Of a stretch of DNA of 64,000 nucleotides, positions 3,896 through 61,813 are shown piece after piece (the stretch's first letter is position 1; each line of letters begins with the position of its first letter). Source of the stretch: Mytilisepta virgata. Its lineage: Eukaryota > Mollusca > Bivalvia > Mytilida > Mytilidae. The notes under the pieces are model-generated. The model was not told the origin of the DNA. It worked only from the letters and a program-made list of their open reading frames with translations, and ran no database searches. Made by a program: the position numbers and the translations under genes. The stretch covers positions 1 through 64,000 of the forward strand of contig JAPWFG010000025.1 of the NCBI GenBank assembly GCA_028015205.1, given 5' to 3'.

Positions 3896-6800
3896 TCACT
3901 GAGAATTTTTCAAAAATGTTTTCAAATTATATTTAAAGGAATTGGTATTTGATATTATGCGTAAATTTGATGGCAATTGATTCCATAAAGTAGAGCCAGA
4001 ATATGCAAAAGATTTCTTAAATAATTCAGTTTTTGGCCATGGTACAATAAGGTTGCCTTTCGCTGAGTTTCTTGAAGTGTACTGGTTGCGTACAAACAAG
4101 TGTTCAAATTTTTCATTAAGATACATAGGGGCGTCTCCCTTTAAACTCTTATGGACAAGGAGGTAAGTATGATATTTAATCCTTGAATCAATTGTCATCC
4201 AACCAAGTTCCTTAAATAATGGTGCTGATGGAGTAAAAGGATCAACGTTAAGAATTAATCTTAATACCCTTTTTTGAAGTTTTAGGACTCTTGTTATGCC
4301 ATCATTATTGCAACCTCCCCAAATTATACAGCAATAATCAATAATGGGCAGTATATAGCCATTATAAAAAGCTTTCCTAGCATCCAAGTTTAAAAACTTC
4401 TGTATTCTAGACAATAAGTATATTCTGGACGATAAGATGGAGCAAATATGATCAACTTGATTTTTCCAGGTTAGATTTGTGTCAATTTTTACACCAAGTA
4501 ATTTTTCGCAAGACGAGGTTTGCAAAACTTGAGAGTTTATTTCTAGCGCAAGTGAATCAGTTTGTTGGGATACTCGCTGATGTGTTCCAGTAATCATACA
4601 TTTTGTTTTATTGATGTTTATAAACATATTATTAGTTTTGCACCACTCTTCAACTTTTAATAAGTCTTCCTGAATTTTTGGTTGTATTTCTTGTATATTT
4701 TTACCTGACTTATGAAGCGTGGTATCGTCTGCATATAATTCTGTCATACAATTTTCCAAAAATAAAGGGAGGTCATTTATATAGATAACAAAAAGTAGGG
4801 GTCCCAGAATAGAACCTTGAGGAACACCAAAATTTACCTTTCTTTTTTCAGAAAATATATTACCAATGTTAACCTGCTGTGTTCTTTCAGACAGATATGA
4901 TTTGAAAAAAATTAACTGTTTTACTACAAAATCCATAGATCTCTAGTTTTTTACATAGAATTTCATGATCCACAACATCAAAAGCTTTCTTGAAGTCTAA
5001 AAGTACAACCAAATTGATATTTCCATTGTTCATTTCATGTAACCATTTGTCTACAATGTTAATGAGAGCAGTTTGACATGAATGCTTCGGCCTAAATCCT
5101 GACTGTGCAGGATGTAAAAGATTGAATTTTGATAAGTATGCATGCATATGGTTTGAAACATGTTTTTCTAAAATCTTGGACAAAGTTGGTAAAACTGATA
5201 TAGGTCTATAGTTTGTTGCAAGGTCTCGTTCTCCTGCTTTGAATATAGGAGTAACTTTGGCATTTTTCAATTGATCTGGGTAAACTCCAGTATCAATTAT
5301 TCTATTAAAGATATAAGTCAGAGGAAATGCAATATGTGTTGCACACAATTTTAGTATTTTTGGTCCTACATTATCACAACCTGTTGATTTATGGATATCT
5401 AATTCTAGTAATTCCCTAAAGATGTCATGTGCTTTTACTGCTGGAATTTCAAAAGGTACATGTCTTACATTCTTGGTTTGATTTTTTACAAAATCTTTTA
5501 TCTTTGCATGATTAATAGGGGTGGAATTACATTGACCTTCTTGTCTTAGCTTAAATGCACAAGATGAAAAAAAGTCATTAAAAGCATTAGCGATATCTGT
5601 TTTATCAGTGATAACATTGTTGTTATCTGATGATAATTCATAGGGGGTATCATGATTCTTAGGATTTAGACTATGGATACATTTCCAAAGATTCCTAGTG
5701 TCTTTTGAGTCCTTTACCATATCATTATAATACTTCTTTTTACAAGATTCAATTATAGAGGTGGTACGATTTCTCCAGAATTTGTACTCGCTCCACATGC
5801 CAAGTGTATGGTATTTATCTCTCATTTTAGCAGCATATTTTATTTCATCACTGTACCAATCAGGCTGTCTTTCCCTTTTAACTCTCTTTGAAACAATGGG
5901 AGCATGTTTATCCAAAACTTTACATAAGAGGTCATAAAATTTCTGTAGACAAATAGAAGGGTCACTGTCAAACTCTATTGAATAAAAGGGGGTTTTGTCT
6001 AGATCAGTTAAAAAATCATTTTCACAAAAATGTTTGAAGTTTCGATATGTGATGGTGGAATGGGTCTTCTTTTTTTCCAAAATTTTCTCCATTCTTAATA
6101 TACATACAGGGTAGTGATCACTGATAGAGTAATGAGGCACATGACATTGTTGAATCTTATCCTTATTAGTAACATAAACATGGTCTATCAGGGTTTTAGA
6201 ATCTTTGGTAACCCTTGTTGGTTCTGTTACCATTTGATTTAGTGTAAAGGTGTTAATTAAATTTAGCCACTTTTGAGGGGGTTGATTCGGAGGCAAAAAA
6301 TTCATATTAAAATCGCCCAAGAGTATAATGTCATCATTAACAGCAATAGCATTATGTAATTCTTTTTCAAAATCATCAATCCATTGGATGAGTGAGTCTG
6401 GAGGTCTATAGACAAAACATAATAAAAATGATTTTTTGTGATTAGGCTTAATTTCCAGCCATAAAGTTTCAAGACCACTAATTTCTAAATTTTGTTTCCT
6501 TGTATATCTGAGTTTTTCAGATATATAGATAATTTGTCCCCCACCACCATGGGAAGTTCTATCCTTCCTTTCAAATTTAAAGCTTGGTATTTTTAACTGA
6601 TTATCAGGAATGTCTTTTATCAAAAAGGTTTCACATAATCCCAATACATCTGGTTTATAATCAGAACAAATTACAGAAAGTTTTATGTCTTCAAACTTGC
6701 TTCCTAATCTATTGACATTATGCGATGCAATCTTAATTCCCTTTGATTTGTCAAAGCCATATGGCATAAATCCACTTGACATATCTTTAAAACATATACA

Positions 6801-7160
6801 ATATAAACAAGATAAAAGGCATACAGTGAAAACTGAGAAGACAAACATATTCTTATCAACTGATACATTGGCCTCAGGGAGATGATGAATAGAAACTACA
6901 AGAGACTGATCATTATTAATTACATTAGAAATGTCATGGTGATTTTCACATGTGGTTATATTAACATCAGATAAATTGGATTCATTAGATGCAACATTAG
7001 TGTCAAATTCTTTAACATTAGACTTTTTATGATTTCCTGTATTTCTTTTAAGCCCCAAATTCTTTTGTTTGAAAAAGAAATTACCAACATTTTGGTCATC
7101 AATTTTAACACATTTACAAATATTATAATTGCATTCTGCACACAATGATAACAAAGACAA
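3896..7160 (-). pseudogene. LINE ORF2: endonuclease-reverse transcriptase, one frameshift
   Basis: Two overlapping frames, 7160-4887 (757 codons) and 4936-3896 (346 codons), together make one polyprotein. The first holds an apurinic-type endonuclease from about residue 141 (ASHNVNRL, GLCETFL, LLGDFNMNF, ISDHYPV) and the start of the reverse transcriptase (ending soon after LLDFKKAFDVVDHE, motif A). The second carries motif B (GVPQGSILGP), the catalytic YADD and the C-terminal region. The break lies in a run of seven T (minus strand) near 4911-4917; one base too many explains it. The product nicks target DNA and reverse-transcribes the element RNA. Unusually, residues 1-140 precede the endonuclease and include a Cys cluster (CAECNYNICKC) and a hydrophobic stretch at 105-124. 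Either the copy is dead or the extra T is an assembly error. Confidence 0.9.
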
Positions 7161-7199
7161 ATATCTATTTTGTGTGGCTATTTCTTCTTTGCCAAAAAC

Positions 7200-8747
7200 C
7201 TATTTTTGTAAACATAAATTAGCTTTGTGGCCAAAAAGTCCACATTTATAACATTGTAACTTGTTTTCATATCTACAATATGAAGTTGAATGATTGCCTT
7301 CCCCACAATTGCTACACACTACACTTTGTCTCTTTAGGATACCAATAATATTGTTAATGTTATGCAGGTACTTTGATGTACCCTTCTTTCCGAGATGGAT
7401 CCCATCCTTTGAAAAGTACATTGGGTACGGATAGTCAACACATTCTGCGAATGACCCCAATTGGTCAATGAAAATAATGTTGTAGAAGTGGCAGAGGTTT
7501 TCAAGCTCTTTGTTTGCATCGACAACGGACACATCGGACCTTGGTAGAAGACCTGATACAATTATATTTGTGTCATTATTTCCAAACGCTCTCACTGCAA
7601 ATAGAAGACTTTCATAATCCTCTATAAATTGTTGCGTATTTTGGTGATGTGCTATGTCATTTCCACCAACTTGAAGAATAATATTCTTGTATGGCCTAAT
7701 GTCATCTTTCATAATGTGGTCAGTGATGCGATTTATGTGGGCACCTCTAAGAGTTATAACGTCAGTGTTTCGTAGGCCTCGAGTTTGTATACCTTTGAGA
7801 ATTGAAGATCCAATTATTAAATTTCTTTCCTGATGTTCAACTTTATGAATCTTTGACTTTGGCTTAGGTTCAGGTGTGGTAGGCTTTGTTTGTACCTCAC
7901 GGATGCCTTCAGTAGTTTGTACAGTTTCTTCTTTCTGCAGGACTTTTGATTTTCTAGGTGCAGGAATGGGTGTGGTTTGAGTTCCAGTCTCGCATGTTAC
8001 ATGTAAATGTTGACTTTTCTCAGTTTGACATTCAGCATTAGTCAAAGTTATTTCAGTTTGAGTAGCCACATCAAATGAGATTTTCCTTTTATTCTCCTTA
8101 TCTATGATTTCCTCGAGATGTTTGTTTTTAATTGTTAATGATTTAACAAGTTGTATCAACTCATCCCTTCCGAGGTCTTTATATTCTGATTGGGCACATT
8201 TGATTTCAGTTTCAGTGTTTGTAGATGGAATAAGACTAATTGTCTTACCTTCAATTTCATTGTTTAAGTCCGATAGGTTTCCTAATTCATTGTCACTTGA
8301 ATCACTGAAGAAATTCTGTATATTTATTGGTGTGGATGATCTTGGTTGCGCTGAAATGATTTCACCTTCAAGCTCTTTACATTTAATCACAAATGCATCC
8401 AGCCAAGCATATATTTTCTTCCCTTGAATATTCAAAGTTCCATTACTTTCATAAAGTGTCACTGTCACATTATTTTCAATGTCTTTGTAAATAAATCCAT
8501 GCTGAAAGTCACTCTTAACTAAACTTAATTCATTTTCCAAGATGTTCTTAATCTTATCTACCATAGGAATTGCAACATGTACTGTAATGCTAAGTTTCTT
8601 TGGTGACACATCCAAAAATTCAGGAATTGAGTCAACTGATAAATTTGACATAGAAACATTTTCTGATTCAGTTTCTGTTACTGTTGAATTATTAAATGAA
8701 TTAAATAAAGATTTCACTGTTGTTAAAGAATTTGCTATCAAAGACAT
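7200..8747 (-). CDS. LINE ORF1: SGNH esterase domain plus two CCHC zinc knuckles
   Basis: A 515-residue protein. Residues about 308-475 form an SGNH/GDSL-type hydrolase: IIGSSIL supplies the nucleophile Ser (block I), VGGND the Gly-Asn block, and DGIHL the catalytic Asp-x-x-His. Two perfect CX2CX4HX4C zinc knuckles follow (about 478-491 and 499-512). ORF1 proteins of CR1/L2-type LINEs bind RNA and form the ribonucleoprotein; the esterase's role is not settled. The N-terminal 300 residues are polar and Ser/Thr/Glu-rich, with five Q-T motifs (ATQTE, ECQTE, GTQTT, TVQTT, EVQTK). No RRM is evident. The frame is intact from ATG to stop, and ORF2 begins 39 bp downstream. Confidence 0.9.
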   Translation of the reverse strand: MSLIANSLTTVKSLFNSFNNSTVTETESENVSMSNLSVDSIPEFLDVSPKKLSITVHVAIPMVDKIKNILENELSLVKSDFQHGFIYKDIENNVTVTLYESNGTLNIQGKKIYAWLDAFVIKCKELEGEIISAQPRSSTPINIQNFFSDSSDNELGNLSDLNNEIEGKTISLIPSTNTETEIKCAQSEYKDLGRDELIQLVKSLTIKNKHLEEIIDKENKRKISFDVATQTEITLTNAECQTEKSQHLHVTCETGTQTTPIPAPRKSKVLQKEETVQTTEGIREVQTKPTTPEPKPKSKIHKVEHQERNLIIGSSILKGIQTRGLRNTDVITLRGAHINRITDHIMKDDIRPYKNIILQVGGNDIAHHQNTQQFIEDYESLLFAVRAFGNNDTNIIVSGLLPRSDVSVVDANKELENLCHFYNIIFIDQLGSFAECVDYPYPMYFSKDGIHLGKKGTSKYLHNINNIIGILKRQSVVCSNCGEGNHSTSYCRYENKLQCYKCGLFGHKANLCLQK

Positions 8748-10073
8748 TTTGGCTTAATTAATCCATTATCAGGGAGCAAGAGAAAACACATCCATTCACT
8801 TCAACATCTGATAAAAATTTTATCAAATAAAATAAGTCTCAAAAGCATATAATCATGCTTAATTAACAGATACAATATAATAGAAACACTTAGATTTGAT
8901 TTTTAGACTCATTGAAACATTTCAAACTTAAAATTGCTGATTTAGAAAGACAACAAAATTTATTGATATTTGTTGCACTCCTGACACCCGAGTATTTGTT
9001 GTTCAAAAACATAAAAAAAAAAAACTATCATAAAATACAACTGAATACATTATCATATAACAGTGATATGAGTATTATGCTTCATAATTAAGCCAATAAA
9101 TATATCATTTTGAATAAAATGTGAAAATATTTGAATGATTTGTATCATTTTTCTAATTCATCACTACATAAACAAGAGAATTGTCACATAAAATAAGTCT
9201 CAAAAGCACATAACCATGCTTAATTAACAGATACAGTATATTATAAACATCATATTCAGCATTTTTGTCAATTTAAAAACATACTATTACTTGTAACTTC
9301 CTGTTACGTAACTAATTAAAAAAAAATGATGAGTTGTTGCACTCCTGACATCAACTTTGAATTGAAAATTTTCTCTTGCTTATGTAAGCGACAAACATTT
9401 AACAAACAAATTCTGAACAAGAAATACAACTAAGTGTCAGATGTCTATAGTTTCTTTGTAAAATCAGAAATCTCTGACTTCAGAAACTGTAGTTTAAGAC
9501 CATGTTGCACTCCTGACAATTCACAGTGCCTATATATATGTGGCAACCATTGTATAATCATTACTTCCTGGATTCATTTGGGGTATTTTTTATGAAGGTA
9601 ATGTATTGAAGGTTAGTTTGAGTTAGTATTTGCTGTTAGAAAATATAGAAACAATCAAGTATTAATTTTTTAGTCAAAATCCTTGATTTTTTTTGTTGCA
9701 CTCCTGACAGGCACCATTTATATTTCAACTAAAAAATCTACACGAAACCATCATTGCAATATTCAGTCATATGCATCTAAACAAGGCCAATATATGCAAG
9801 ATATCGAAAAAATAACATTTAAAAGTGCATCTTATGAATTGAAATTTCGATGGCCTTTTAAAAATTCATGATTTTTAAAAGTGTCACAAAAAAGCGTTGC
9901 ACTCCTGACAATTTCGGCATCTATTTTTTAAATAACTTTTTTATTTTTAGAGATATTCACAAGATATTTTGCACAATTAAACTTCATACCTTTACACATA
10001 TTTTGAAACATAAACAATTAAAACATATTCAAAAGGCTTTGTTGTAGGGCACTGAAAGTGCAGCCACCCTGCC

Positions 10074-50033: not shown

Positions 50034-50993
50034 TCAACCCAATAGGTATTCCTCTAAAGTTGCTGGTGATACATCGAAAAATATCCCGGTTTCACTGCCA
50101 TAAAGACAGGTATGGCAATTTGTCAGTAGAACTGCTACTTTGTAATACTTTCCCACGGGTTGCAGATATAACTTTAGATTTTTCTTGTAGTCTAGAAATG
50201 CAAATAGTGACAAAACTTTTCCAAAAGCCCACTCCACACAAATGCGTACTGCTGACATTCTTTTGTTGAAAATCATTTGATTCCTGGAGATAACTCCGCC
50301 TCTAAATGGTGCAATTATATATCCATCAGTCACGGGATATGCCGGGTCACCATAGATGCAAAATATTCGCCCCTCTGAAGTTGTCATATGGACCCTCATT
50401 TGTGTTAAAATATCACTTTCACGTAACATTCTTGCGTCATGTTGACGTCTGCATATTGGTCTAACAGTACCGTCGATAAAACCCCAGCAGCTATCTAAAG
50501 GCCCGTCACGATCGAAAACCGCACCTGCAAAACGTTCTAAACACTCTTGTGAGAGCCAACTCATGTTGAAGTCTGAAAGAAGATGGCAATGATTGTCATG
50601 TATGTAATCGAGAACTTCATTGATGATGAGAGAAAGTTCTGTTTTTGATCTGCCAAATATATATTCTAGATCTTCAAGGCGACTAAGGTAGGCAAGTCGT
50701 CGTAATACCATGCAGAGTCCATCAATACCCCTTGCCGTGGTGCGATTACTACATACAACTTTCTCTGGTATACGCAGGGCGCGACGAAGAATTTCAATAT
50801 CATCTTTATCAAATCTAAAAAAAGATCGACACTGTTCATTTGTAAGTTTTTCAACTTCTATACTTGGAAAATTGCCCTTTTCCTCTTTACATAATGACAA
50901 AAGCAGTAATTCATCGGAGTCTTCTAAAGCTGCTAACACTTTCAAGTTTTCCGCCTGAGTTATCAAACATAAAACAAAGACATTTATTGGCAA
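50034..50993 (-). CDS. PIF/Harbinger DDE transposase with shortened catalytic core
   Basis: 319 residues. The N-terminal half contains helix-turn-helix-like segments (DKDDIEILRRALRIP; EYIFGRSKTELSLIINEVL). The catalytic triad is recognisable: Asp174 in GFIDGT, Asp216 in YGDPAYP and Glu254 in VEWAFG. RRQHDARML follows GFIDGTVRPICR directly. In related transposases I recall roughly 35-40 residues between these blocks, so the core appears internally deleted in frame. The open frame is otherwise intact. An acceptor-like CTCAG just inside the start (about 50950) suggests the first residues may be intron-derived and that a 5' exon lies upstream. Such enzymes cut and paste Harbinger DNA, together with the Myb-like partner. 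This copy is probably inactive. Confidence 0.85.
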   Translation of the reverse strand: MPINVFVLCLITQAENLKVLAALEDSDELLLLSLCKEEKGNFPSIEVEKLTNEQCRSFFRFDKDDIEILRRALRIPEKVVCSNRTTARGIDGLCMVLRRLAYLSRLEDLEYIFGRSKTELSLIINEVLDYIHDNHCHLLSDFNMSWLSQECLERFAGAVFDRDGPLDSCWGFIDGTVRPICRRQHDARMLRESDILTQMRVHMTTSEGRIFCIYGDPAYPVTDGYIIAPFRGGVISRNQMIFNKRMSAVRICVEWAFGKVLSLFAFLDYKKNLKLYLQPVGKYYKVAVLLTNCHTCLYGSETGIFFDVSPATLEEYLLG

Positions 50994-51144
50994 CTATTCT
51001 TTGCTTTCAACCAATGAGATAATATTTTGCATTACGTCTTTTACACGTACACGTACGACTTTGCTAAACACAACGTGGCATAATAAAAACGTACGAGTAC
51101 GTGTACTTCTATTCTACACGTACGCGTTCACGCACACGGACGGT

Positions 51145-51157
51145 TGCTAAACCTCTC
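51145..51157 (-). repeat. Right Harbinger end (13-bp inverted repeat)
   Basis: TGCTAAACCTCTC. On its inner side lie several ACGTAC/GTACGTGT words (51047-51125), matching in kind those inside the left end and located just upstream of the transposase start. Confidence 0.5.
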
Positions 51158-52030
51158 TAATGTCAATCATAACAATAGCTTCCCAATAGAAGACTTGGTG
51201 TTGATAAAAGTGTTCATCATCCATTTTACTTGGTTGGTGTCTCACACAGCATTTGTTTTTTAATTTTTTTTTCTGGAATAAGCAATGGCCTCTGTTACAC
51301 CGTCATTCATTTCTGATTCAGTGGCTAGCTTTAATTGGTGTTTCTTACAATAGCCCTCAGAATATGCTGAAAATTGAAAACATATAAAAGGATATTTGAA
51401 GAAACAAAAAAAACGCTCTTATACAATACACAGATTCTTAATATAAAAAAATACTTTATAGACGAACTATTTCCCTGCATCCTTAGCATTAGTTTGTAAT
51501 GGAACATATTAAAAATTGTATTTTGTAAAATTGAGTTCAGTAGTCGGAGTATTTAGAGATTGTTCAAGAATTAAAATGTACCTTAATTTTGTAAGAGTTA
51601 AATATATCAAGTTTTAAAGTGCTTTATTTTTCAGAATGGTGCATGCCAAGATACATGTACCTCTTCAGTGTGAAATAAAAAATCTATTAAGTTGCCTGTA
51701 ACAATGATACAAAAGAAACCCCAAAAAGTCCATATAGCCTGCTCATGCTGCTTGAGTACAATGATTATACCAAAATTTTTTTGTTGTAACAAAGTTATGA
51801 GTTGATTGATTAACAGAATAAAGTTTAAACTGTGACTTTTTAACTCCATTATTGAATATTCTAAAAATGTTCAAGCACTGTTTAAAATATAAACCTTTGC
51901 TGGTCTGAATTTTGCTTCAGTCTAGAGGTGGTCTGGTATCCCCTTGTTTGGCTGGTTTAATGCCCTGTCCTCTGGAGTTGGCCATTGCTTCCGTTGAAAA
52001 TAGTAGTGGCATTAGTTTCCCTGGGTTCTT
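51158..52030. other. No gene seen
   Basis: Sequence right of the Harbinger end; no coding frame with convincing composition and no clear repeat structure. Confidence 0.4.
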
Positions 52031-52034
52031 TTTT

Positions 52035-52425
52035 AGCTCACCTGACCCAAAGGGTCAAGTGAGCTATTCTCATCACTTGGCGTCCGTCGTCCGTCGTCCA
52101 TCGTCCGTGGTCTCTCATCCGTCGTCGTCCATTAACTTTTACAAAAATATCCTCTGAAACTACTGGGCCAAATTGAACCAAACTTGGCCACAAGCATCAT
52201 TAGGGTAACTAGTTTAAACATTATGTCCGATGACCCTGCCTGCCAACCCACATGGCCGACATGGCTAAAAATAGAATATAGGGGTAAACTGAAGTTTTTG
52301 TCTTATATCTCAAAAACTAAAGCAATTAGAGCAAAACTGAAATTGGGTAAAAATGTTCATCAGGTCAAGATCTACTTGCTATGAAATTTTTAGACGAATC
52401 GGTCAACCCTTTGTTGGGTAGTAGT
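52035..52425 (+). repeat. AGCTCAC-family element, left part, interrupted by the palindrome
   Basis: The hairpin 52035-52065 (AGCTCAC, TGACCC, AAA, GGGTCA, GTGAGCT) is followed by family body sequence up to 'aaccctttgttgggtagt'. The body resumes at 59376 ('ggttattgcccctgaatt'). The interruption defines the borders of the palindromic element. Confidence 0.75.
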
Positions 52426-52507
52426 AGGGGTTAGGATCTTTTATCTCCCCCAAAAACCCAGGGCGTCAGGGCACACCCAAATATGGTCATGCCCTGCCCC
52501 CCCTTTT

Positions 52508-52713
52508 CCATATATGGACATACGCCCTCCCCCTTTTCTATATATGGACATCCGCCTCACCACCGTCGTGAGTCATCAGATCATCGCGCAGTCCTAATTT
52601 GGTCAACAGATCCCAATGAGTCATCAAGACATCGATTGGCATACGTGAGTCATCGCGCAGTCCTTATTCGGCCAACAGATTCCAATGAGTCATCAAAACA
52701 CGGATATGAGTCA
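52508..52713 (+). promoter_or_regulatory. CCATATATGG box and five TGAGTCA heptamers upstream of the PC4-type gene
   Basis: CCATATATGG (52508-52517) matches the CC(A/T)6GG consensus of serum-response-factor sites, with a second CTATATATGG at 52539-52548. TGAGTCA, the AP-1/bZIP consensus, occurs at 52569, 52617, 52646, 52686 and 52707, within a roughly 75-bp unit present twice. The ATG is at 52795. The same sites are mirrored in the right arm. Function is inferred from consensus matches only. Confidence 0.5.
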
Positions 52714-52794
52714 CCGCATGTTTACACATGCCGATATTATTCGAAAGAGTGTTGACCTTATTTGGAGGTAATACAATTGATCTGAAAAGAACCA

Positions 52795-53376
52795 ATGAAA
52801 AACGCGAAACATCATTGTAAAGTAACGCGCATCGATGCCCGATACTTCATTTACCCACTATCCGAGATGGAGAACGCACGTTGCAATATCGAGCTGGGAA
52901 ACAATAGATTCGTTCAAGCCAAAGAGTGGAAAGATCAAATTAGAATTGACATTAGAGAGTGGGGGCATACAGATGGAAAATTAGTGCCTACCAAAAAGGG
53001 AATTAGCTTACCCCTTCAGAGGTGGAAAATGTTGGTCGACAGCTTGGAGTTTCTAGATCTAGCCCTGTCGGAAAGAAGAGACTACATGACACACCTGGGA
53101 AGAAACGTGTATGCCGCAACTCAAGCAAATAATGACAATATTAATATCCGTCAGTACTGGTTACCACCCCACAACACCGAAGTCGCCCCCACGAAAAAAG
53201 GAATAACTTTACGCAAGGAAGAATACGCTAAGTTGAAAAACATTGTCGTTGAGATTGGAGGTGTCGTCCCGGAATTAAGTACCGTCGTCCCGTGTTCATA
53301 CAGTTCCGATCATCAGAACCAGCTGGGATTCTTAAGATGTCCAGAGTGTAACCCCGACTCCTTTACAGAATGGTGA
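52795..53376 (+). CDS. Tandem PC4/Sub1-domain protein, intact left-arm copy
   Basis: 193 residues. Residues about 34-90 (LGNNRFVQAKEWKDQIRIDI, REWGHTDGKLVPTKKGISL) and 101-161 (NINIRQYWLPPH, APTKKGITLRKEEYAKLK) each match the PC4/Sub1 fold. The signature I/V-DIR-Y/W ... P-x-K-KGI-S/T-L is seen twice. The C-terminus has a CPEC pair. PC4 proteins bind single-stranded DNA and act in transcription and replication. Cellular PC4 has one domain and dimerises; here two domains in one chain could form an intramolecular dimer. No signal peptide or membrane segment. One uninterrupted exon; start chosen as the first ATG, well upstream of domain 1. The mirrored copy is at 58425-59007. Host, viral or transposon origin is open. 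Confidence 0.8.
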   Translation: MKNAKHHCKVTRIDARYFIYPLSEMENARCNIELGNNRFVQAKEWKDQIRIDIREWGHTDGKLVPTKKGISLPLQRWKMLVDSLEFLDLALSERRDYMTHLGRNVYAATQANNDNINIRQYWLPPHNTEVAPTKKGITLRKEEYAKLKNIVVEIGGVVPELSTVVPCSYSSDHQNQLGFLRCPECNPDSFTEW

Positions 53377-54642
53377 AATATATAAACAATCTTTAAAAGA
53401 CTGGTTAATCCAATGTCTAGAATTGAATATACTGTATAGAATTGAATATACTATAATAAAATGTAGAAAACTTTGTTATCTCTTTTTTTCATGTTTGTGT
53501 TTAAGATGTAAAAGTAATTTTAGAGAAATTATCATGAAGTGATTTTTTTAATAGAGGAGTACCGTAAAACCTGTTGAACCGAACTGTTTGTCATGTTATC
53601 AAAATCACCACAAAGTTTGTCTATTCAAGGCTCACCAGAGGTGCTTTACCAAAAGACTACACTATATGAATTTAAAGAGCATAGAACAATAAAATCAATT
53701 AATGCAGAACCAAATTAAACAATTGTTTTACCCCGGTCCATTGATCTTTAACCTCAAATTACCCCTACTAGACTGAGCATGCTGATAACGAACGTCGACT
53801 CCTAGGTCATGACCTATCTCATATTACAAACACACTAAAACCAATCAAATATTGATTAAACCGATGCAACAAAATTGGTTTATTCCCCGATTATATCCTA
53901 TTATGTGATTTATATTCTTACTTATAACAGTCCGTTATCATATAAAACAAAACCGTTGCCGTCGGTAGGGTTAGCAGACACTGCCTGTTGCAACAAAGGA
54001 AACTTTTGTTTTTATCTCAGTACAGCTTATCTTTCACCTTAAATTACCCCTACAAGAGCATGCTGACCTATCTCAAGCCAGATGTCATACTAGCGAACAA
54101 ACCAAACAAATATTGATTTCAAAACCGATCATTTAGTGTTAATACAGAGTTTGTCAATTCACTCACGACAAACAAAACCACATTAAATGCTCTTGCATAG
54201 TTGCAACACACCCATCTATGAAAAAGGCAATTGAGGAAACAATGCTTTACTAAACAATTCTTAAAATATATAACTAACGGGAGATCTACATTTTATCGAA
54301 ATCGTTAGTTTCGTCTATTATAAACTCGTCAGAAGCGCTCTTCCCAAATAGTTTAAAATAAATAAAATACTTGCATGAGGTTTATCAACAGATGAGTCAT
54401 ACAATGTTACACCACGTCATCATACATAAGATGGTTAAATCATTTGTCTTGGGTATGAGTCATATACGTAATGCTTACACCATGAGCCATCACGCATGTT
54501 ATGACTAAATAAGGTAATTAGTCTTCGGTATGAGTCATACAATGCTGACGTGACTCATTCTTATCAAATGCACATGCATTATCAAATATGGTAAACACAC
54601 TTCTGACTGAATGTGCATGACCAAATACGGAAATGTCAAGTT

Positions 54643-54691
<49 letters not shown>

Positions 54692-54717
54692 AAGCTCGTA
54701 TTATATAACGACCAATA

Positions 54718-54878
54718 AGAATAAGTGTTTTTTCACGATGGATTTTCAATGCATGGAAGATCGAGGAGCACCACCACCACCACCACCACCACCACCACCA
54801 CCACATGGTGGCATTGTGGTGGTGGTAGTGGTGCTCCTCTTCCATGCATTGAAACTCCATCGTGAAAAAACACTTATT
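54718..54878. repeat. Apex hairpin with (CAC)n/(GTG)n core
   Basis: AATAAGTGTTTTTTCACGATGGA ... on the left pairs with TCCATCGTGAAAAAACACTTATT on the right. The stem continues through ATGCATGGAAGA and GGAGCACCACCACC against GGTGGTGGTAGTGGTGCTCC. The stem is about 60-70 bp with few mismatches. Poly-Pro and poly-Trp frames on the two strands are by-products of the CAC/GTG repeats. Confidence 0.85.
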
Positions 54879-57111
54879 AGGTCTTTCCACTTTCCGTGGA
54901 AAGACCTTTTGCTTTTGTTCTGATTATTTTTTTTTTTTTTTTTTTTTTTTTTCTTCTGCCGTCTAGGATGTTTTTTTGTTACTTGACATATCGAAAGGAT
55001 TTTTGGCCCATGATATCGTACAGTGATTGCGATTTCACCATTGACCCTGTGTAACCGAACACTTTTTTTTATAGGAGTTATCTCCCCGCGTCCTCCTTTT
55101 CTTGTTATCTTTATTTCTCTGTAACCGTAAAAGATATCGACCTAAAATCTTTTGCAATGTCTTCAGTGTATCTGTGCGCAACTTTGTTCCATTTGGTTGG
55201 AAAGGATCTGACGACATTTCATAGGAGTTATTTCCCTTCAAACGACTTTCACTTTTGGTGTATCATACAAATTGTTCTTTAGAGTTGAGATATCAACATG
55301 AAACTTTGTATTTAGGGTCCATGACCCCTAACAAGTAAAATGAGGTCAAGGTCAAAGGGCAAGGTCAAGTTCTAAATTTTGACTTTTGCTTGTTATCGCT
55401 TCTCCTCTGAAACGGTAAAAGATAGCTGATAAAATGTAATGGAGAAAATGTTAAGGACGTTGAGACCGAGCTTTGTTACATTTGCATAAAAGTTGTATGA
55501 CGTCATTTGATAGGCGTAATTGCCGTTAGAACGTTTAAATTTTCGGTTTATCGTTTAATTCTCAACAATGGTACATGATAAAGGCATGGGGTCTTTTGGT
55601 CTGACATCAAGGATTGATAACCTTCAAATTGGCATCAAGGTCAAAGGTCAAGGTCAAGTTCTAAATTTTGACTTTTGCTTGTTATTGCTTCTTCTCTGAA
55701 ACGGTAAAAGATAGCTGATCAAATGTAATGGAGAAAATGTTGACGACGTTGAGACCTAGCTTTGTTACATTTGCATAAAAGTTGTATGACGTCATTTTAT
55801 AGGCGTAATTGCCCCTAAAACGTTTAATTTTTCGGTTTTTCGTTTAATTCTCAACAATGGTACATGATAAAGGCATGGGGTCTTTTGTTTTGACATCAAG
55901 GATTGATAACCTTCAAATTGGCATCAAGGTCAAAGGTCAAGGTCAAGTTCTAAATTTTGACTTTTGCTTGTTATCGCTTCTCATCTGAAACGGTAAAAGA
56001 TAGCTGATAAAATGTAATGGAGAAAATGTTCAGGACGTTGAGACCTAGCTTTGTTACATTGAGAAAAAGTTGTATGACGTCATTTTATAGGCGTAATTGC
56101 CCCTAGAACGTTTAAATTTTTGTTTTTCGTTTATTTCTCAACAATGGTACATGATAAAGGCATGGGGTCTTTTGTTTTAACATCAGGGATTGATAACCTT
56201 CAAATTGGCATCAAGGTCAAAGGTCAAGGTCAAGTTCTATTATTTGACATTTGCTTGTTATCACTACTCCTCTGAAATGGTTGTGGATAGCCAAGGAAAT
56301 GTAATGGTGGAAATGTTTAGGACATTGATGCGCAACTTTGTTACATTTGAGTTCAAGTTGTATGACGTCATCTTTTGAGAGTAATTGCGCCTAGAACGTT
56401 CAAACTTAAGGTTTTTCGTTTATAACTTGACAATGGTACATAATAATGGCATGGGGTCTTCTAAAATGACCTCAATGACCAATGACCTTGAAAAAGGTCA
56501 CAAGGTCAAAGGTCAAGGTCATGACCTATATTACGTATTTTGCATTTTTTTCACACTTTATAAGGTTTTTTTCAGATTTTTAAAGCAATTAAAGCTATTG
56601 AAAGCGTGAAATTCAGGCACTACTTTTGCTGACGTCATTTCTGGCAACGTCATTATTTCTGTAGACGTTTTTAGACGTTTTGGATATATTGGAATGTTAA
56701 TTAATGTGACAATGTTACAACCCATGAAAACGTCTAGAATTGTCAATTTGTAAGGTTACATTAATGCCGTTTTTGATGTTTATAGTGCAAAACAGTATAA
56801 TTCATCACAAACATTTAGTTAACCAGAAATAAACATTTTTCTTAGTTGTTCAAACTAGCAGTCCATATATTTTTTTTAAAAAATTGTGAAATTACCTATC
56901 GTATCAAACCAGAAGTGATATTTGTAATACGGGAAGTAGCATAATACCTCCCTTATTTCAGTACATAGAACCATATATCTTTGAAATCACTGAAAGTTTA
57001 GCTATGCTCTTAAACCAACAATTACATTTTAAACCTCATTTTTTTTATCAACAAATCTGCAATTGAGGTGGAAAGACCTTCAATTGTTTTCTGAACAATT
57101 GGTTTTTAATT
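54879..57111 (+). mobile_element. AGGTCTTTCCAC hairpin-headed element inserted beside the apex
   Basis: The 5' hairpin is AGGTCTTTCCAC, TTTCC, GTGGAAAGACCT (54879-54907). Near the 3' end GTGGAAAGACCT (57068-57079) complements the arm again, followed by a perfect hairpin CAATTGTT, TTCTG, AACAATTG (57081-57101). CTTATT flanks both sides (54873-54878 and 57112-57117) and may be a target duplication. The interior is a tandem array (about 55060-56530) and AT-rich sequence. This is the cleanest example of the shared architecture. Confidence 0.8.
55060..56530 (+). repeat. About 290-bp tandem array with CRE and DR1-like sites in most monomers
   Basis: Four to five units are visible. TGACGTCA occurs at 55498-55505, 55787-55794, 56075-56082 and 56363-56370. 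AGGTCAAAGGTCA occurs at 55638-55650, 55927-55939, 56214-56226 and 56503-56515, with one mismatch at 55349-55361. Other shared phrases are 'cttgttatcgcttctcc', 'aacggtaaaagatagctg' and 'caacaatggtacatgat'. Units are similar but clearly diverged. Confidence 0.85.
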
Positions 57112-57118
57112 CTTATTG

Positions 57119-57154
<36 letters not shown>

Positions 57155-58424
57155 AAGTTGACATTTCCGTATTTGGTCATGCACATTCAGTCAGAAGTGT
57201 GTTTACCATATTTGATAATGCATGTGCATTCGATAAGAATGAGTCACGTCAGCATTGTATGACTCATACCGAAGACTAATTACCTTATTTAGTCATAACA
57301 TGCGTGATGGCTCATGGTGTAAGCATTACGTATATGACTCATACCCAAGACAAATGATTTAACCATCTTATGTATGATGACGTGGTGTAACATTGTATGA
57401 CTCATCTGTTGATAAACCTCATGCAAGTATTTTATTTATTTTAAACTATTTGGGAAGAGCGCTTCTGACGAGTTTATAATAGACGAAACTAACGATTTCG
57501 ATAAAATGTAGATCTCCCGTTAGTTATATATTTTAAGAATTGTTTAGTAAAGCATTGTTTCCTCAATTGCCTTTTTCATAGATGGGTGTGTTGCAACTAT
57601 GCAAGAGCATTTAATGTGGTTTTGTTTGTCGTGAGTGAATTGACAAACTCTGTATTAACACTAAATGATCGGTTTTGAAATCAATATTTGTTTGGTTTGT
57701 TCGCTAGTATGACATCTGGCTTGAGATAGGTCAGCATGCTCTTGTAGGAGTAATTTAAGGTGAAAGATAAGCTGTACTGAGATAAAAACAAAAGTTTCCT
57801 TTGTTGCAACAGGCAGTGTCTGCTAACCCTACCGACGGCAACGGTTTTGTTTTATATGATAACGGACTGTTATTAGTAAGAATATAAATCACATAATAGG
57901 ATATTATCGGGGAATAAATTAACCAATTTTGTTGCATCGGTTTAATCAATATTTGATTGGTTTTAGTGTGTTTGTAATATGAGATAGGTCATGACCTAGG
58001 AGTCGACATTCGTTATCAGCATGCTCAGTCTAGTAGGGGTAATTTGAGGTTAAAGATCAATGGACCGGGGTAAAACAATTGTTTAATTTGGTTCTGCATT
58101 AATTGATTTTATTGTTCTATGCTCTTTAAATTCATATAGTGCAGTCTTTTGGTAAAGCACCTCTGGTGAGCCTTGAATAGACAAACTTTGTGGTGATTTT
58201 GATAACATGACAAACAGTTCGGTTCAACAGGTTTTACGGTACTCCTCTATTAAAAAAATCACTTCATGATAATTTCTCTAAAATTACTTTTACATCTTAA
58301 ACACAAACATGAAAAAAAGAGATAACAAAGTTTTCTACATTTTATTATAGTATATTCAATTCTATACAGTATATTCAATTCTAGACATTGGATTAACCAG
58401 TCTTTTAAAGATTGTTTATATATT

Positions 58425-59007
58425 TCACCATTCTGTAAAGGAGTCGGGGTTACACTCTGGACATCTTAAGAATCCCAGCTGGTTCTGATGATCGGAACTG
58501 TATGAACACGGGACGACGGTACTTAATTCCGGGACGACATCTCCAATCTCAACGACAATGTTTTTCAACTTAGCGTATTCTTCCTTGCGTAAAGTTATTC
58601 CTTTTTTCGTGGGGGCGACTTCGGTGTTGTGGGGTGGTAACCAGTACTGACGGATATTAATATTGTCATTATTTGCTTGAGTTGCGGCATACACGTTTCT
58701 TCCCAGGTGTGTCATGTAGTCTCTTCTTTCCGACAGGGCTAGATCTAGAAACTCCCAAGCTGTCGACCAACATTTTCCACCTCTGAAGGGGTAAGCTAAT
58801 TCCCTTTTTGGTAGGCACTAATTTTCCATCTGTATGCCCCCACTCTCTAATGTCAATTCTAATTTGATCTTTCCACTCTTTGGCTTGAACGAATCTATTG
58901 TTTCCCAGCTCGATATTGCAACGTGCGTTCTCCATCTCGGATAGTGGGTAAATGAAGTATCGGGCATCGATGCGCGTTACTTTACAATGATGTTTCGCGT
59001 TTTTCAT
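58425..59007 (-). pseudogene. Tandem PC4-domain gene, right-arm copy with one frameshift
   Basis: Mirror image of the left-arm gene. Domain 1 reads from the ATG at 59007, but an extra base in the CCC at 58754-58756 (plus strand) shifts the frame just after domain 1 and gives a short unrelated tail ending at 58669. The second domain remains open in another frame (from 58715 down to 58425). One residue in the second domain also differs (Gly to Asp, EIGG/EIGD). Only one arm therefore keeps the full gene. An assembly error in a palindrome is a realistic alternative. Confidence 0.8.
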
Positions 59008-59375
59008 TGGTTCTTTTCAGATCAATTGTATTACCTCCAAATAAGGTCAACACTCTTTCGAATAATATCGGCATGTGTAAACATGCGGTGACTCATATAC
59101 GTGTTTTGATGACTCATTGGAATCTGTTGGCCGAATAAGGACTGCGCGATGACTCACGTATGCCAATCGATGTCTTGATGACTCATTGGGATCTGTTGAC
59201 CAAATTAGGACTGCGCGATGATCTGATGACTCACGTCGGTGGTGAGGCGGATGTCCATATATAGAAAAGGGGGAGGGGCGTATGTCCATATATGGAAAAG
59301 GGGGCGGGGCATGACCATATTTGGGTGTGCCCTGACGCCCTGGGTTTTTGGGGGGGATAAAAGATCCTAACCCCT

Positions 59376-60120
59376 GGTTATTGCCCCTGAATTGTTAATT
59401 TTAAGGAAATATTGCAGTTTTAGGTTATTATCTTGAATATTATTATAGATCAAGACAAATTGCAAAAATGTTCAACAAAGTAAGATCTACAAATAAGTCA
59501 ACATGACCAAAATCATTGATTGACCCCTTATAGGAGTTTTTGCCCTTTAAAGACGGCATCCAGCGTAAACTTCCATTTAAAGATCTTTTCCTCTCAAACC
59601 ACTGAGCCAATTGAAACCAAACTTTTTTGGAATGGTCCTTTTGTGGCCCCCTTCCAAAATTATGTCTGGCATCCCCGACGTCCAACCGACATGACTGCTG
59701 TTACTAAAAATAGAAAAAAAAGGGGGGGTAATTTTCAAAAATCTTATATGAAACTACACGGCCAGTTGGAACCAAAGTTGGCCGTAATGGTTCTTAGGAG
59801 GTTCTCTTTCAGAAAAATGTCCAATGACCCGGTCTGTTAACCAAGATGGCCGCCACATCCGAACTTTGTTTAACTTAGGGCCCTATGGGAAAATTCATTG
59901 AAAAATGTTCTTGTCTTAAACCACTTGACCAATTGGAACCAGACTTGGCAGCAATGGTCCTCTTACAGAGGTGTGTCCGATGACCTGGACTGTAAACCAA
60001 GATGGCAGCCACAACTGAACTTAGTTTAACATAGGGCCCTATAGGAAAATTCATTGAAAAATCTTTTTGTCTGAAACCAGTTGACATATTGGAGCAGGAA
60101 TTGGCAGAATTGGTCCTTGG
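59376..60120 (+). repeat. AGCTCAC-family element, right part
   Basis: It continues the copy broken at 52425: 'ttattgcccctgaattgttaattttaag', then three to four internal units ('accaagatggcagccaca', 'agcaatggtcctc', 'ccctataggaaaattcattg'). The 3' signature hairpin is not recognisable, so this end is degraded near 60120. Confidence 0.65.
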
Positions 60121-61813
60121 TTATTTTGTGGGATAATAATTACCTTTTCAAACAGTCTTCATCAAAATAATAGCTTCATATTATTAATAATCCATTGTTT
60201 ACAGCTTCATCCTGTTGTTGTAATTGTGCTCGAACTCGAATTTGAACCGCTTGATATTGCGCATGTGCGGATTTGTTATTTCCTGTCGAATAGCCCACGA
60301 AAATTTAAAAGCCAAATTCACGACGAAATTGACAACCTCGGAATCGTTTAATAGTAATACACATATTTTGTAATTATTAGTATGAAGACAAGTCATATTT
60401 AATTTTCAAAAGATCGACTGTTGTCCTAATTTAAGGGGCTGTCAGATGTGGGCACAGGAATTCAGGCTTGAAACTATAAGGATTTAAATTAAGTCCCCTT
60501 TTTTCTGCAAAATTCTTTAATTCTTTTACGATTGACGATTATTAAAGGCTATATAATCCGCTGTAAAAAGATTGGGGTAAAGTGCTGAAATTAAGTGGTG
60601 TTTTCAGAATAAACCCCCCCCCCCCCTCCCACCCCCGGCCAATTATATATATTATATCTGCAACATTGATTCATCTGCATGTTCATTTAATATCAACATT
60701 GTATCTATCAGCAGGAAAATCAATATGCCTAAAAGATTCCTGTTAATTCCAGCTACATTCCTGGAGGAATCCTGCTATAATTATTGTACGGGTATTCTAC
60801 CGAAAATCTGTGGTTTTCTTCGGATACGCTGGCTTCCTCCACCAATAAAAAACTGGCCGCCGCGACATAGCCACGTGTGCTGACAATGGCGTGAAACCCC
60901 AACTAAACAAACTTAAAAATCAAATCCATACTTTGGTAAAACGGTGTGTTAGTGAGAAAATGCCTATTTAAATTGTTGGTAAAATGTGGGAATTCAAATT
61001 CAGTAAATTTCGGCTTGGGGAAACCCAAAATGTTAATCTTTTAATGAATTATTAAGATTCAGAGCTTGTGTGTATATCAATATCCATATTTCAGAGAGGC
61101 AATTCCATTATGTTATAATTGAGTCCATGAAAGTTACAGGTATATTTGAGCTTTTGTGTGCTTCAAATTAGCTTTTAAACTGCACAGAACCTACTATCTG
61201 GACACCTCAGTTCATAAAATGATTTTTAGGATTTTGAAAGTCTAAGCGTTAGAATTAACTCAGACCTATCATAAATTTGCATTATTTTTCTTATTTTACA
61301 TATTTTTAATGCACTCTGTGCATATTTCATGAATCACACGTTGTAATACTTAATTTTATTCAAATTCTGAAAAATCCATTTTACAAACTCAGAGGTGTCC
61401 AGACAGTAAATGCAGAAGTCAAAAATAACTTGTTCATAATGTGAAGTAAATAATTTATTTCATGAAGTAATTTTTCACACTCATATAAATTTAGAAACTA
61501 AGATGCTTATTTGTAATTTCAAGTAGTTATAAATATGACACAAAAAGTTAAAATCCATCTCTAAAATAGCAAAATTGTCATTTAATTTAAAGTTATTAAA
61601 CAGTTGAAGACTTATAACTATGTAGAAGTACAGGTGAATTACATGTAATCTTTATCAGAAATAAACTATCAGTACAATCACAACATTCCCTAATAAGTAT
61701 ATTTATATAATAGTCCAGTCAATCTAGCATAAATTTGACCCTAACCTTAAAGTAATTGCAAAAGAAGATTTTTAAGTTTTAATCTTTAGAATTATACCCC
61801 AAATATACACAGA
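60121..61813. other. Gene-poor stretch with small repeat fragments
   Basis: A C-rich run lies at about 60607-60636. A fragment at about 60700-60785 resembles the TCCTGC-AGGAAT cluster near 33300-33620. It is followed by 'tggcttcctccaccaataaaa' and 'ctggccgccgcgacatagcc' (to about 60905), a phrase I recognise as widespread in mollusc DNA. From 60910 to 61813 I see AT-rich sequence and no coding frame. Confidence 0.5.

Follow-up and report, generated by a model that had tools for sequence, protein, structure and literature searches.

A palindromic element in the genome of Mytilisepta virgata, probably a non-autonomous derivative of a Polinton

The window, a stretch of 64,000 nucleotides from the bivalve Mytilisepta virgata, contains a palindromic element that is quite probably a non-autonomous derivative of a Polinton/Maverick of the adintovirus type, likely to have originated by snap-back and likely to be mobilized in trans. 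Judged by alignment, its arms are two mirror-joined copies of the PC4-bearing right end of a Polinton. The first-pass annotation had offered an integrated linear replicon, or the terminal repeats of a larger element, as alternatives to a self-sufficient palindrome; these came close: in the structure, a single end of a larger, integrated element is present twice. The features are as follows, in window coordinates.

52414–52419, no strand: left TSD copy, 6 bp, TTGGGT (the uninterrupted host repeat in locus L013 reads ..TTGTTGGGTTATTGCC..)
52420–54799, plus strand: left arm, corresponding to the Polinton right end from the TIR (AGTAGTAGGGG) to the apex, placed by alignment to the full-length element on contig C1 and by the TIR start
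52581–52705, plus strand: two direct repeats of 56 nt with 69-bp spacing, in the subterminal region
52795–53376, plus strand: intact double-PC4 gene, 193 aa, product predicted to bind ssDNA, with a C-terminal Cys/His motif (Pfam, AF2, Foldseek)
54720–54878, no strand: native apex hairpin, inverted arms of 41 bp flanking (ACC)n/(GGT)n, from inverted-repeat detection
54881–57081, no strand: unrelated insertion nested in the right arm next to the apex; its ends read AGGTCTTTCCAC/GTGGAAAGACCT and it includes four tandem units of ~289 bp (boundaries approximate)
57082–59375, minus strand: right arm, the Polinton right end once more, in inverted orientation, placed by alignment to the C1 element and the left arm
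58425–59007, minus strand: right-arm double-PC4 gene, frameshifted and split over two ORFs (one indel column)
59376–59378, no strand: GGT, remnant of the right TSD copy, recognized from the uninterrupted repeat in L013

The inverted arms were detected at 52426–54689 and 57122–59375 and are 99.11% identical, with 12 mismatches over 2254 aligned bases, so that their near-identity, already remarked upon in the first-pass annotation, is borne out. Identity to the full-length C1 element at its right end is 95.3% for the left arm (2243 columns) and 95.6% for the right arm (2236 columns). The element interrupts a dispersed host repeat, an uninterrupted copy of which lies at L013 3770–3820 and provides the empty site that it had been suggested to look for. 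The sharp outer ends earlier placed inside this repeat are sound with one adjustment: the left end lies six bases further out, at 52420, and takes in AGTAGT. The right end has no ACTACT counterpart to this AGTAGT, and the right flank lacks three bases of the TSD relative to the uninterrupted repeat.

The palindrome had been drawn around a 2.4-kb centre. Its symmetry stands, but the apex lies at 54720–54878, and sequence comparison indicates that most of the centre entered later, as an unrelated insertion. The inserted segment at 54881–57081 matched none of the 13 Polinton and palindrome loci compared with it and bears no likeness to the rest of the window. Homology to the C1 element ends 14 bases into the zinc-finger ORF, and is followed by CATGGAAGAGGAGCACC(ACC)n. 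A similar junction motif, CAATGCATGGAAGAGGAGCACC, occurs in other copies (a 28-base pattern search was among the methods used). At two loci (L034 and L035) the same apex tail is present and a second, inverted arm is missing. Rearrangements mirrored in both arms were found at four of the six apexes mapped (L014, L016, L017 and L022).

The coding content of the element consists of the PC4 genes and ORFs of 80–90 aa, none of transposase size, one of which has no Pfam match. Polymerase, integrase and capsid genes are absent from positions 51000–61000, where ORFs other than PC4 are shorter than 110 aa, and a tRNA scan of the window detected none. The element is a non-autonomous derivative and no autonomous member of the Polinton/Maverick class.

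The parent type is represented by a 17.8-kb element at C1:3228360–3246182 (L029 and L030), with the TIR AGTAGTAGGGG and the TSD GCCACC (6/6 positions); an element at C4:2.06 likewise has a 6/6 TSD. Copies associated with an integrase had been proposed as a search target, and the C1 element is one, with an rve integrase (E 1.7e-12). A chromodomain-like segment (E 2.1e-5, narrowly missing the curated cut-off) occupies the next open frame after the integrase; an integrase with a C-terminal chromodomain is among the features given in the class definition in PMC11071296. The C1 element also encodes a packaging ATPase of the Pox_A32 type (PF04665, E 1.3e-5, above the curated cut-off), a CARD ORF (E 7e-13), a merely possible adenovirus-type protease (PF00770, E 0.03, below the cut-off) and a capsid protein. 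The latter is predicted to adopt a double jelly-roll (AF2 pLDDT 89.4), with Sputnik (E 2e-15) and mavirus (E 1e-14) as top Foldseek matches, and its sequence had no match among PDB sequences.

The polymerase of the C1 element is assigned indirectly, to candidate ORFs. Its pieces have no Pfam match of their own, and one piece compared with PDB sequences gave nothing convincing. Among 120 listed homologues, one carries PF03175, two are named DNA-directed DNA polymerase, and ten carry PF08719 (NADAR). The PF03175 match in the first of these (P0256; E 7.9e-6, just under the cut-off) covers residues 71–225, which overlap the 48% match to the C1 piece. A polymerase piece on C13 matches PF03175 with E 1.4e-10; it showed no similarity to, or alignment with, the C1 piece.

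In the C1 and C14 elements the PC4 gene lies just inside the right TIR. The 193-codon gene earlier reported for each arm is intact on the left only, the right copy being frameshifted by a single indel; the two PC4/Sub1-type domains are confirmed, with PF02229 matched twice in the left protein (E 5e-27). Across 21 sequences C167, C182 and C185 are invariant, and H173 is nearly so. Structure modelling, recommended in the first-pass annotation, yielded an AF2 model with Foldseek matches to PC4, MoSub1 and the adintovirus protein MOSUB, single PC4 domains being matched with a TM by target of up to 0.93. In a fold search of BFVD, the MOSUB of a lancelet adintovirus ranked first (E 4.9e-8; TM 0.58/0.56 over 165 columns), and a second MOSUB ranked only 19th (E 0.02). 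Relatives were also looked for in IMG/VR (eight pattern matches, none confirmed) and in a collection of annotated phages (none). The window protein shares the PC4 domain with the ssDNA-binding proteins PC4/Sub1 and MoSub1 (1pcf, 6ycs, 4agh), but differs from them in having two domains per chain and a C-terminal Cys/His motif. It is probably the single-strand-DNA-binding protein (SSB) of the parent Polinton; protein-primed replicons that encode SSBs of their own are described in PMC8276246.

The suggested search of the assembly returned at least 155 matches to the double-PC4 protein, and not a single-copy host gene; the protein also has a named viral fold relative in MOSUB. The palindrome, though real, is no self-contained novelty. 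When 150 of the at least 155 matches were joined at a limit of 14 kb, which leaves the C13 pair ungrouped, 93 loci resulted among the matches listed, including 24 convergent pairs and one divergent pair. Of the 24 convergent loci, 15 were read, namely the one in the window and 14 more. Of the clade's 11 capsid loci, 8 have a PC4 match no more than 20 kb away; the check took in 16 of 100 capsid matches, comprising all 11 with ≥63% identity plus five others.

TSDs were scored in 15 further convergent or mirror-image elements, a set that includes the palindrome on C3 and leaves out C13, and agree at 6/6 positions in 12 and at 5/6 in 3. The palindrome is therefore the unit that inserts, and its description as mobile is upheld. 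The left, capsid-bearing end of a Polinton is also found in palindromic form, at C3:30963563–30982528 (TSD 6/6), with an apex of six alternating blocks. Further, the arms of L019–L021 correspond to the right end of a second Polinton subfamily (95–98% identity); here 1.4–3.2 kb of unlike sequence separates the arm segments, and there is no tight hairpin. Arm identities are lower in L018 (80.2%) and L023 (95.1%), which is read as an effect of internal differences and of the alignment. A mirror-image Polinton on C13 has no recognizable TIR or TSD at its ends. The locus L026 is convergent, yet mirror-image only in part.

Arms resemble each other more closely than they resemble those of other palindromes. 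For example, the two arms of an element differ at 2–22 of 1767 columns, as against 32–71 for the nearest other palindrome, in a comparison that leaves out L018–L021, L023 and the large palindromes. The within-element difference was the smaller in all six elements, with a small margin in L015 (22 within and 32 between). The window copy differs from the full-length C1 element at 25 of the 1767 columns and from its nearest palindrome at 71, and palindromes do not group together in a tree of PC4; this pattern requires either that palindromes and full-length elements recombined or that palindromes arose more than once. Despite being nearer to C1, the window copy has the apex motif of the palindromes.

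The genome thus holds many short palindromic derivatives of Polinton ends, likely formed by fold-back of a copied strand. Under the snap-back reading, replication of the parent would be protein-primed and strand-displacing, and a displaced strand that folds back on itself would yield a palindrome. The palindrome would form, and be copied, as an extrachromosomal linear molecule, whose single displaced strand could become a hairpin; the arms would stay alike because mismatches in the hairpin are corrected. Chromosomal gene conversion could also account for their likeness. The polymerase and integrase of the parent Polinton would then move the palindrome in trans.

In the role of the PC4 gene this reading departs from the original proposal, in which the palindrome, as a novel strategy, would equip itself with a protein to handle the hairpin it forms. 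A double-PC4 protein that protects or melts this hairpin, with the gene required in cis, would agree with the presence of the gene, whole or partial, in both arms of every right-end palindrome examined, and with a pN/pS below 1 across 14 copies (0.36; 0.22–0.66), among seven palindromes (0.42; 0.23–0.82) and among three palindromes of group A (0.31; 0.16–0.64), in a test that omitted L023 for its truncated gene and used L008 for the tree only. Against this, the same gene belongs to full-length Polintons, and no PC4 lies within 20 kb of the capsid genes of the C3 palindrome among the matches listed, that palindrome having been read at its ends and apex. In addition, the four close copies of group B give a pN/pS of 2.79 (0.93–inf), with no sign of purifying selection on very few synonymous changes, L017 has only broken PC4 copies, and L022 has equal numbers of indel columns in the PC4 of both arms. 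The novel strategy is accordingly not sustained, and a requirement in cis is quite unlikely; the gene may be kept in palindromes mainly because it adjoins the terminal sequences.

Recombination of two chromosomal insertions into an inverted duplication, later mobilized as a unit, would suit a window copy whose nearest relative is a full-length element, and the internal-deletion derivative L036 could take part in such a pairing. Yet palindromes recur from both ends and in two subfamilies, with hairpin apexes of multiple reversals and exact TSDs; template switching by a strand-displacing polymerase therefore fits better, and a chromosomal origin is unlikely. Long inverted arms also recall Foldback and Galileo, so that the element might be a DNA transposon of the foldback type, from a different superfamily, which simply captured Polinton sequence. 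This is very improbable, given that both ends are Polinton TIRs, the 6-bp TSDs have the form of those of the full-length element, and no ORF in the element is of transposase size. Finally, palindromes are a known class of artefact in amplified long reads, which can arise from chimaeric fold-back reads, but an assembly error is the least credible account here: the flanks differ on each side, the TSDs match, the nested insertion and the frameshift occur in one window arm only, and the empty site exists.

Snap-back in protein-primed strand-displacement replication remains the preferred origin, and one step beyond it can be proposed tentatively, with slightly less than even confidence. The palindromes may be hairpin-replicating satellites of Polintons in animals, regenerated when any single displaced strand folds, with arms that serve as templates for each other in each cycle and so scarcely diverge, recombining with their full-length helpers and integrated by the helper integrase. 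Should this hold, they would be snap-back fossils of a linear, protein-primed, strand-displacing replication with an SSB of the PC4 type. Polinton replication is not known to have been observed directly, and palindromes of snap-back origin would offer a rare view of it. Palindrome families with exact integrase-type TSDs, built from one or the other end and seen in two subfamilies, are a genomic footprint to be expected of replication by protein-primed strand displacement followed by integration. The question becomes testable, as hairpin or palindromic linear molecules are predicted in cells, with the double-PC4 protein bound to the displaced strand. The same reading would explain long, near-perfect palindromes that otherwise resemble assembly errors or unexplained repeats.

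With Polintons and adintoviruses the window element shares TIRs, a 6-bp TSD and a MOSUB-like PC4 protein, and the C1 parent has most of the gene set, including an integrase followed by a chromodomain-like segment. Unlike these elements, which encode PolB, an integrase and a double jelly-roll capsid, the window element lacks all three genes and consists of two copies of one end; literature searches at title and abstract level found no Polinton of this form. Palindromic derivatives of protein-primed replicons are known elsewhere, as in the symmetric defective genomes of adenovirus and the “hairpin plasmid” of Kluyveromyces, which derives from a protein-primed plasmid and was reportedly described by Kikuchi et al. 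in 1985. In both, as here, one terminus of a linear DNA with terminal repeats is inversely duplicated. Foldback and Galileo transposons are also palindromic, with very long inverted arms like those of the window element, but belong to another superfamily with other ends and TSDs. What sets the window-type palindromes apart from the adenovirus and Kluyveromyces forms is that they are chromosomal, carry TSDs and occur in repeated families.

The palindrome in the window consists of two inverted copies of a Polinton right end. Its near-identical inverted arms, with outer limits at 52426 and 59375, were described in the first-pass annotation and were recovered here with a length of about 2.25 kb and 99.11% identity (12 mismatches in 2254 aligned bases, centre excluded), with AGTAGT at 52420 as the true start of the left end. 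Insertion inside an interrupted repeat was likewise upheld, as the repeat that surrounds the element also occurs uninterrupted, as TTGTTGGGTTATTGCC, at a locus on contig C13 of the same genome (L013). The window junctions read TTGTTGGGT followed by AGTAGT on the left and CCCCT followed by GGTTATTGCC on the right; given the L013 repeat, the target duplication was probably TTGGGT, and nine bases appear to have since been lost from the right end. A 193-codon double-PC4 gene had been proposed for each arm. The left copy is indeed intact, with two PC4 domains, and the right copy is frameshifted. Two features occupy the middle of the palindrome:

54720-54878: native apex, a 41-bp hairpin stem flanking (ACC)n/(GGT)n
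about 54881 to 57081: putative insertion at the centre, with AGGTCTTTCCAC-type ends and tandem units of about 289 bp

In a comparison with 13 loci holding Polintons or palindromes, the stretch from about 54881 to 57081 had no match; it was probably inserted into the right arm at a later time. Elsewhere in the window, a DDE_Tnp_4 transposase ORF (50034-50993, minus strand, 319 aa, E 1.6e-11) lies 1.4 kb left of the palindrome, and ORFs of a non-LTR retrotransposon (3896-8753, minus strand) include endonuclease/phosphatase and reverse transcriptase domains at 4887-7199.

A search with the outer-end sequence revealed, on contig C1, two paired ends that bound a 17.8-kb element, which was read as two separate pieces (L029 and L030). 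Its terminal inverted repeats (TIRs) begin AGTAGTAGGGG, and its target duplication is GCCACC. From the left, it encodes a CARD ORF, an integrase core with a chromodomain-like segment in the abutting open frame, a capsid protein, a protease-like ORF, an A32-type ATPase, a putative polymerase in opposite-strand open frames, a C2H2 zinc-finger ORF, and a double-PC4 gene adjoining the right TIR. The capsid model (pLDDT 89) has the Sputnik and mavirus major capsid proteins as top matches. The putative polymerase pieces have no Pfam match; one homologue matches DNA_pol_B_2 over the same residues (E 7.9e-6, just under the cut-off), and 2 of 120 homologues among the matches listed are named DNA-directed DNA polymerase, which points indirectly to a polymerase. 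Taken as a whole, these features identify a Polinton/Maverick, or adintovirus-type, element. Of the 120 listed homologues, 10 have a NADAR domain (PF08719, checked in one of them), which apparently shares a single protein with the polymerase-like part. The CARD domain (L029:420-800, E 7e-13) is a separate ORF; it and the CARD-like stretch of a C13 Polinton described below might disrupt signalling in host cell death or immunity.

The window arms match positions 1-2183 of the C1 right end at 95.3-95.6% identity, in line with the earlier alternative of terminal sequences from a larger element. In four other palindromes (L014, L016, L017 and L022), homology extends to position 2302, 14 bases inside the zinc-finger ORF; from there CATGGAAGAGGAGCACC(ACC)n follows, and the sequence then reverses. 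This apex motif occurs at eight loci, window included (≤2 mismatches). Two of the loci carrying this tail, on C6 and C36 (L034 and L035), lack an inverted second arm and continue into a different interior common to both, so the tail by itself is not enough for a palindrome.

The double-PC4 protein has at least 155 matches in the 1.03-Gb genome. When matches within 14 kb were joined, the 150 listed formed 93 loci, 24 convergent (plus then minus) and one divergent. Fourteen of the other 23 convergent loci, together with a mirror-image element on C3, gave 15 elements outside the window; the six bases flanking one end match those flanking the other perfectly in 12 elements and with one base different in three, and the duplicated sequence varies between elements. 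The palindrome as a whole is thereby marked as what was inserted. A derivative that retains PC4 and the two ends but has an internal deletion (L036) has a duplication matching at 6/6 bases. A different arrangement from the palindromes is the tandem array at C54:166141-174376, where three PC4-plus-end copies of equal score, all facing one way, are spaced about 3.9 kb apart.

Palindromes are also formed from other ends and subfamilies. The C3 element (30963563-30982528), read at its ends and apex only, is a palindrome of the Polinton's other end. Both of its sides carry a capsid gene, and among the matches listed no PC4 lies within 20 kb of these genes. Its arms are 99.9% identical over the outer 739 bp and 100% over the inner 1755 bp, and its apex has six alternating blocks, with reversals within L029 9419-9687, inside the putative polymerase region. 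PC4 matches lie within 20 kb of 8 of the 11 capsid loci with ≥63% identity, and for each of the eight at least one such match is on the opposite strand, at a distance of 10.7-13.9 kb; the C3 arms are two of the remaining three. With at least 100 Polinton-type capsid matches, of which 89 of the 100 scored share 32-37% identity with the C1 type, the genome is rich in Polintons. A second subfamily right end (L038) has a TIR, PC4, a zinc finger and then an ORF resembling the C1 polymerase region. It matches the arms of L019-L021 at 95-98% identity, with 1.4-3.2 kb of other sequence separating the arm segments. Arms reach at least 6.9 kb at 99.99% (L027/L028) and at least 7.5 kb at 99.84% (L009/L010) in larger palindromes; each arm of those read holds a conserved 152-aa ORF (L009:7893-8348) with no Pfam match. 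In another clade, a Polinton with a capsid gene is present as an inverted duplication of 18.7 kb at C13:8536925-8555674 (L011-L013), with arms about 98-99% identical and no recognisable TIR or target duplication. One protein of this Polinton (L011:3419-4540) joins double PC4 to a CARD-like stretch whose score is just under the cut-off (E 7.7e-5).

Arms within an element differ at 2-22 of 1767 gap-free columns, compared with 32-71 for the nearest other palindrome, the within-element value being smaller in 6/6. At four of six apexes mapped (L014, L016, L017, L022), the two arms carry mirrored apex-proximal rearrangements, of which L016 and L022 have one in common. A simple single origin is disfavoured by the window arms, which differ from the C1 element at 25/1767 columns versus 71 from the nearest palindrome, and by the scatter of palindromes across the PC4 tree. 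Exchange between palindromes and full-length elements could produce both patterns.

The proposed PC4-like fold was supported by an AF2 model with two PC4-like halves (pLDDT 81). PDB matches include human PC4 and MoSub1, and among viral proteins a lancelet adintovirus "MOSUB" ranks first. Among 74 database relatives, all six with a named source organism are from Mytilus species (49-69% identity); capsid relatives carry names from mussels, oysters and clams. Both results make a bivalve source for the genome likely. Since viruses with protein-primed replication are described in PMC8276246 as encoding their own SSBs, the protein likely serves the parent Polinton as an SSB that binds its displaced strand. 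For the gene, pN/pS is 0.36 (0.22-0.66) in 14 copies, 0.42 (0.23-0.82) in seven palindromes and 2.79 (0.93-inf) among four close palindromes, and these values suggest that it may be a passenger in some palindromes. Differences between arms are few (pS 0.0025, pN 0.0028). In bay scallop, a thermal-response study (PMC9223095) describes two single-exon 212-aa PC4 genes; like the double-PC4 genes of Polintons, they lack introns, and their lengths are comparable.

A snap-back mechanism, in part conjectural, would account for these end products through a putative intermediate. Protein-primed replication would displace a single strand, whose 3′ end could fold back on its own strand to yield a molecule that has one terminus in duplicate, at either end, and therefore two working TIRs. 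The palindromic strand can fold fully on itself. Mismatch correction would limit divergence between the arms, while additional apex switches would create mirrored and alternating blocks. A full-length element's integrase would then insert the palindrome with a 6-bp duplication.

The string "palindrom" is absent from the text of a giant-transposon review (PMC6431247) and from that of a survey of transposons in bivalves (PMC10294476). Among the papers listed in capped literature searches, with most subscription journals outside their coverage, titles and abstracts showed no palindromic Polintons, which hints weakly at novelty. Precedents for palindromic derivatives come from adenovirus, with its symmetric defective genomes, and reportedly from the Kluyveromyces hairpin plasmid.
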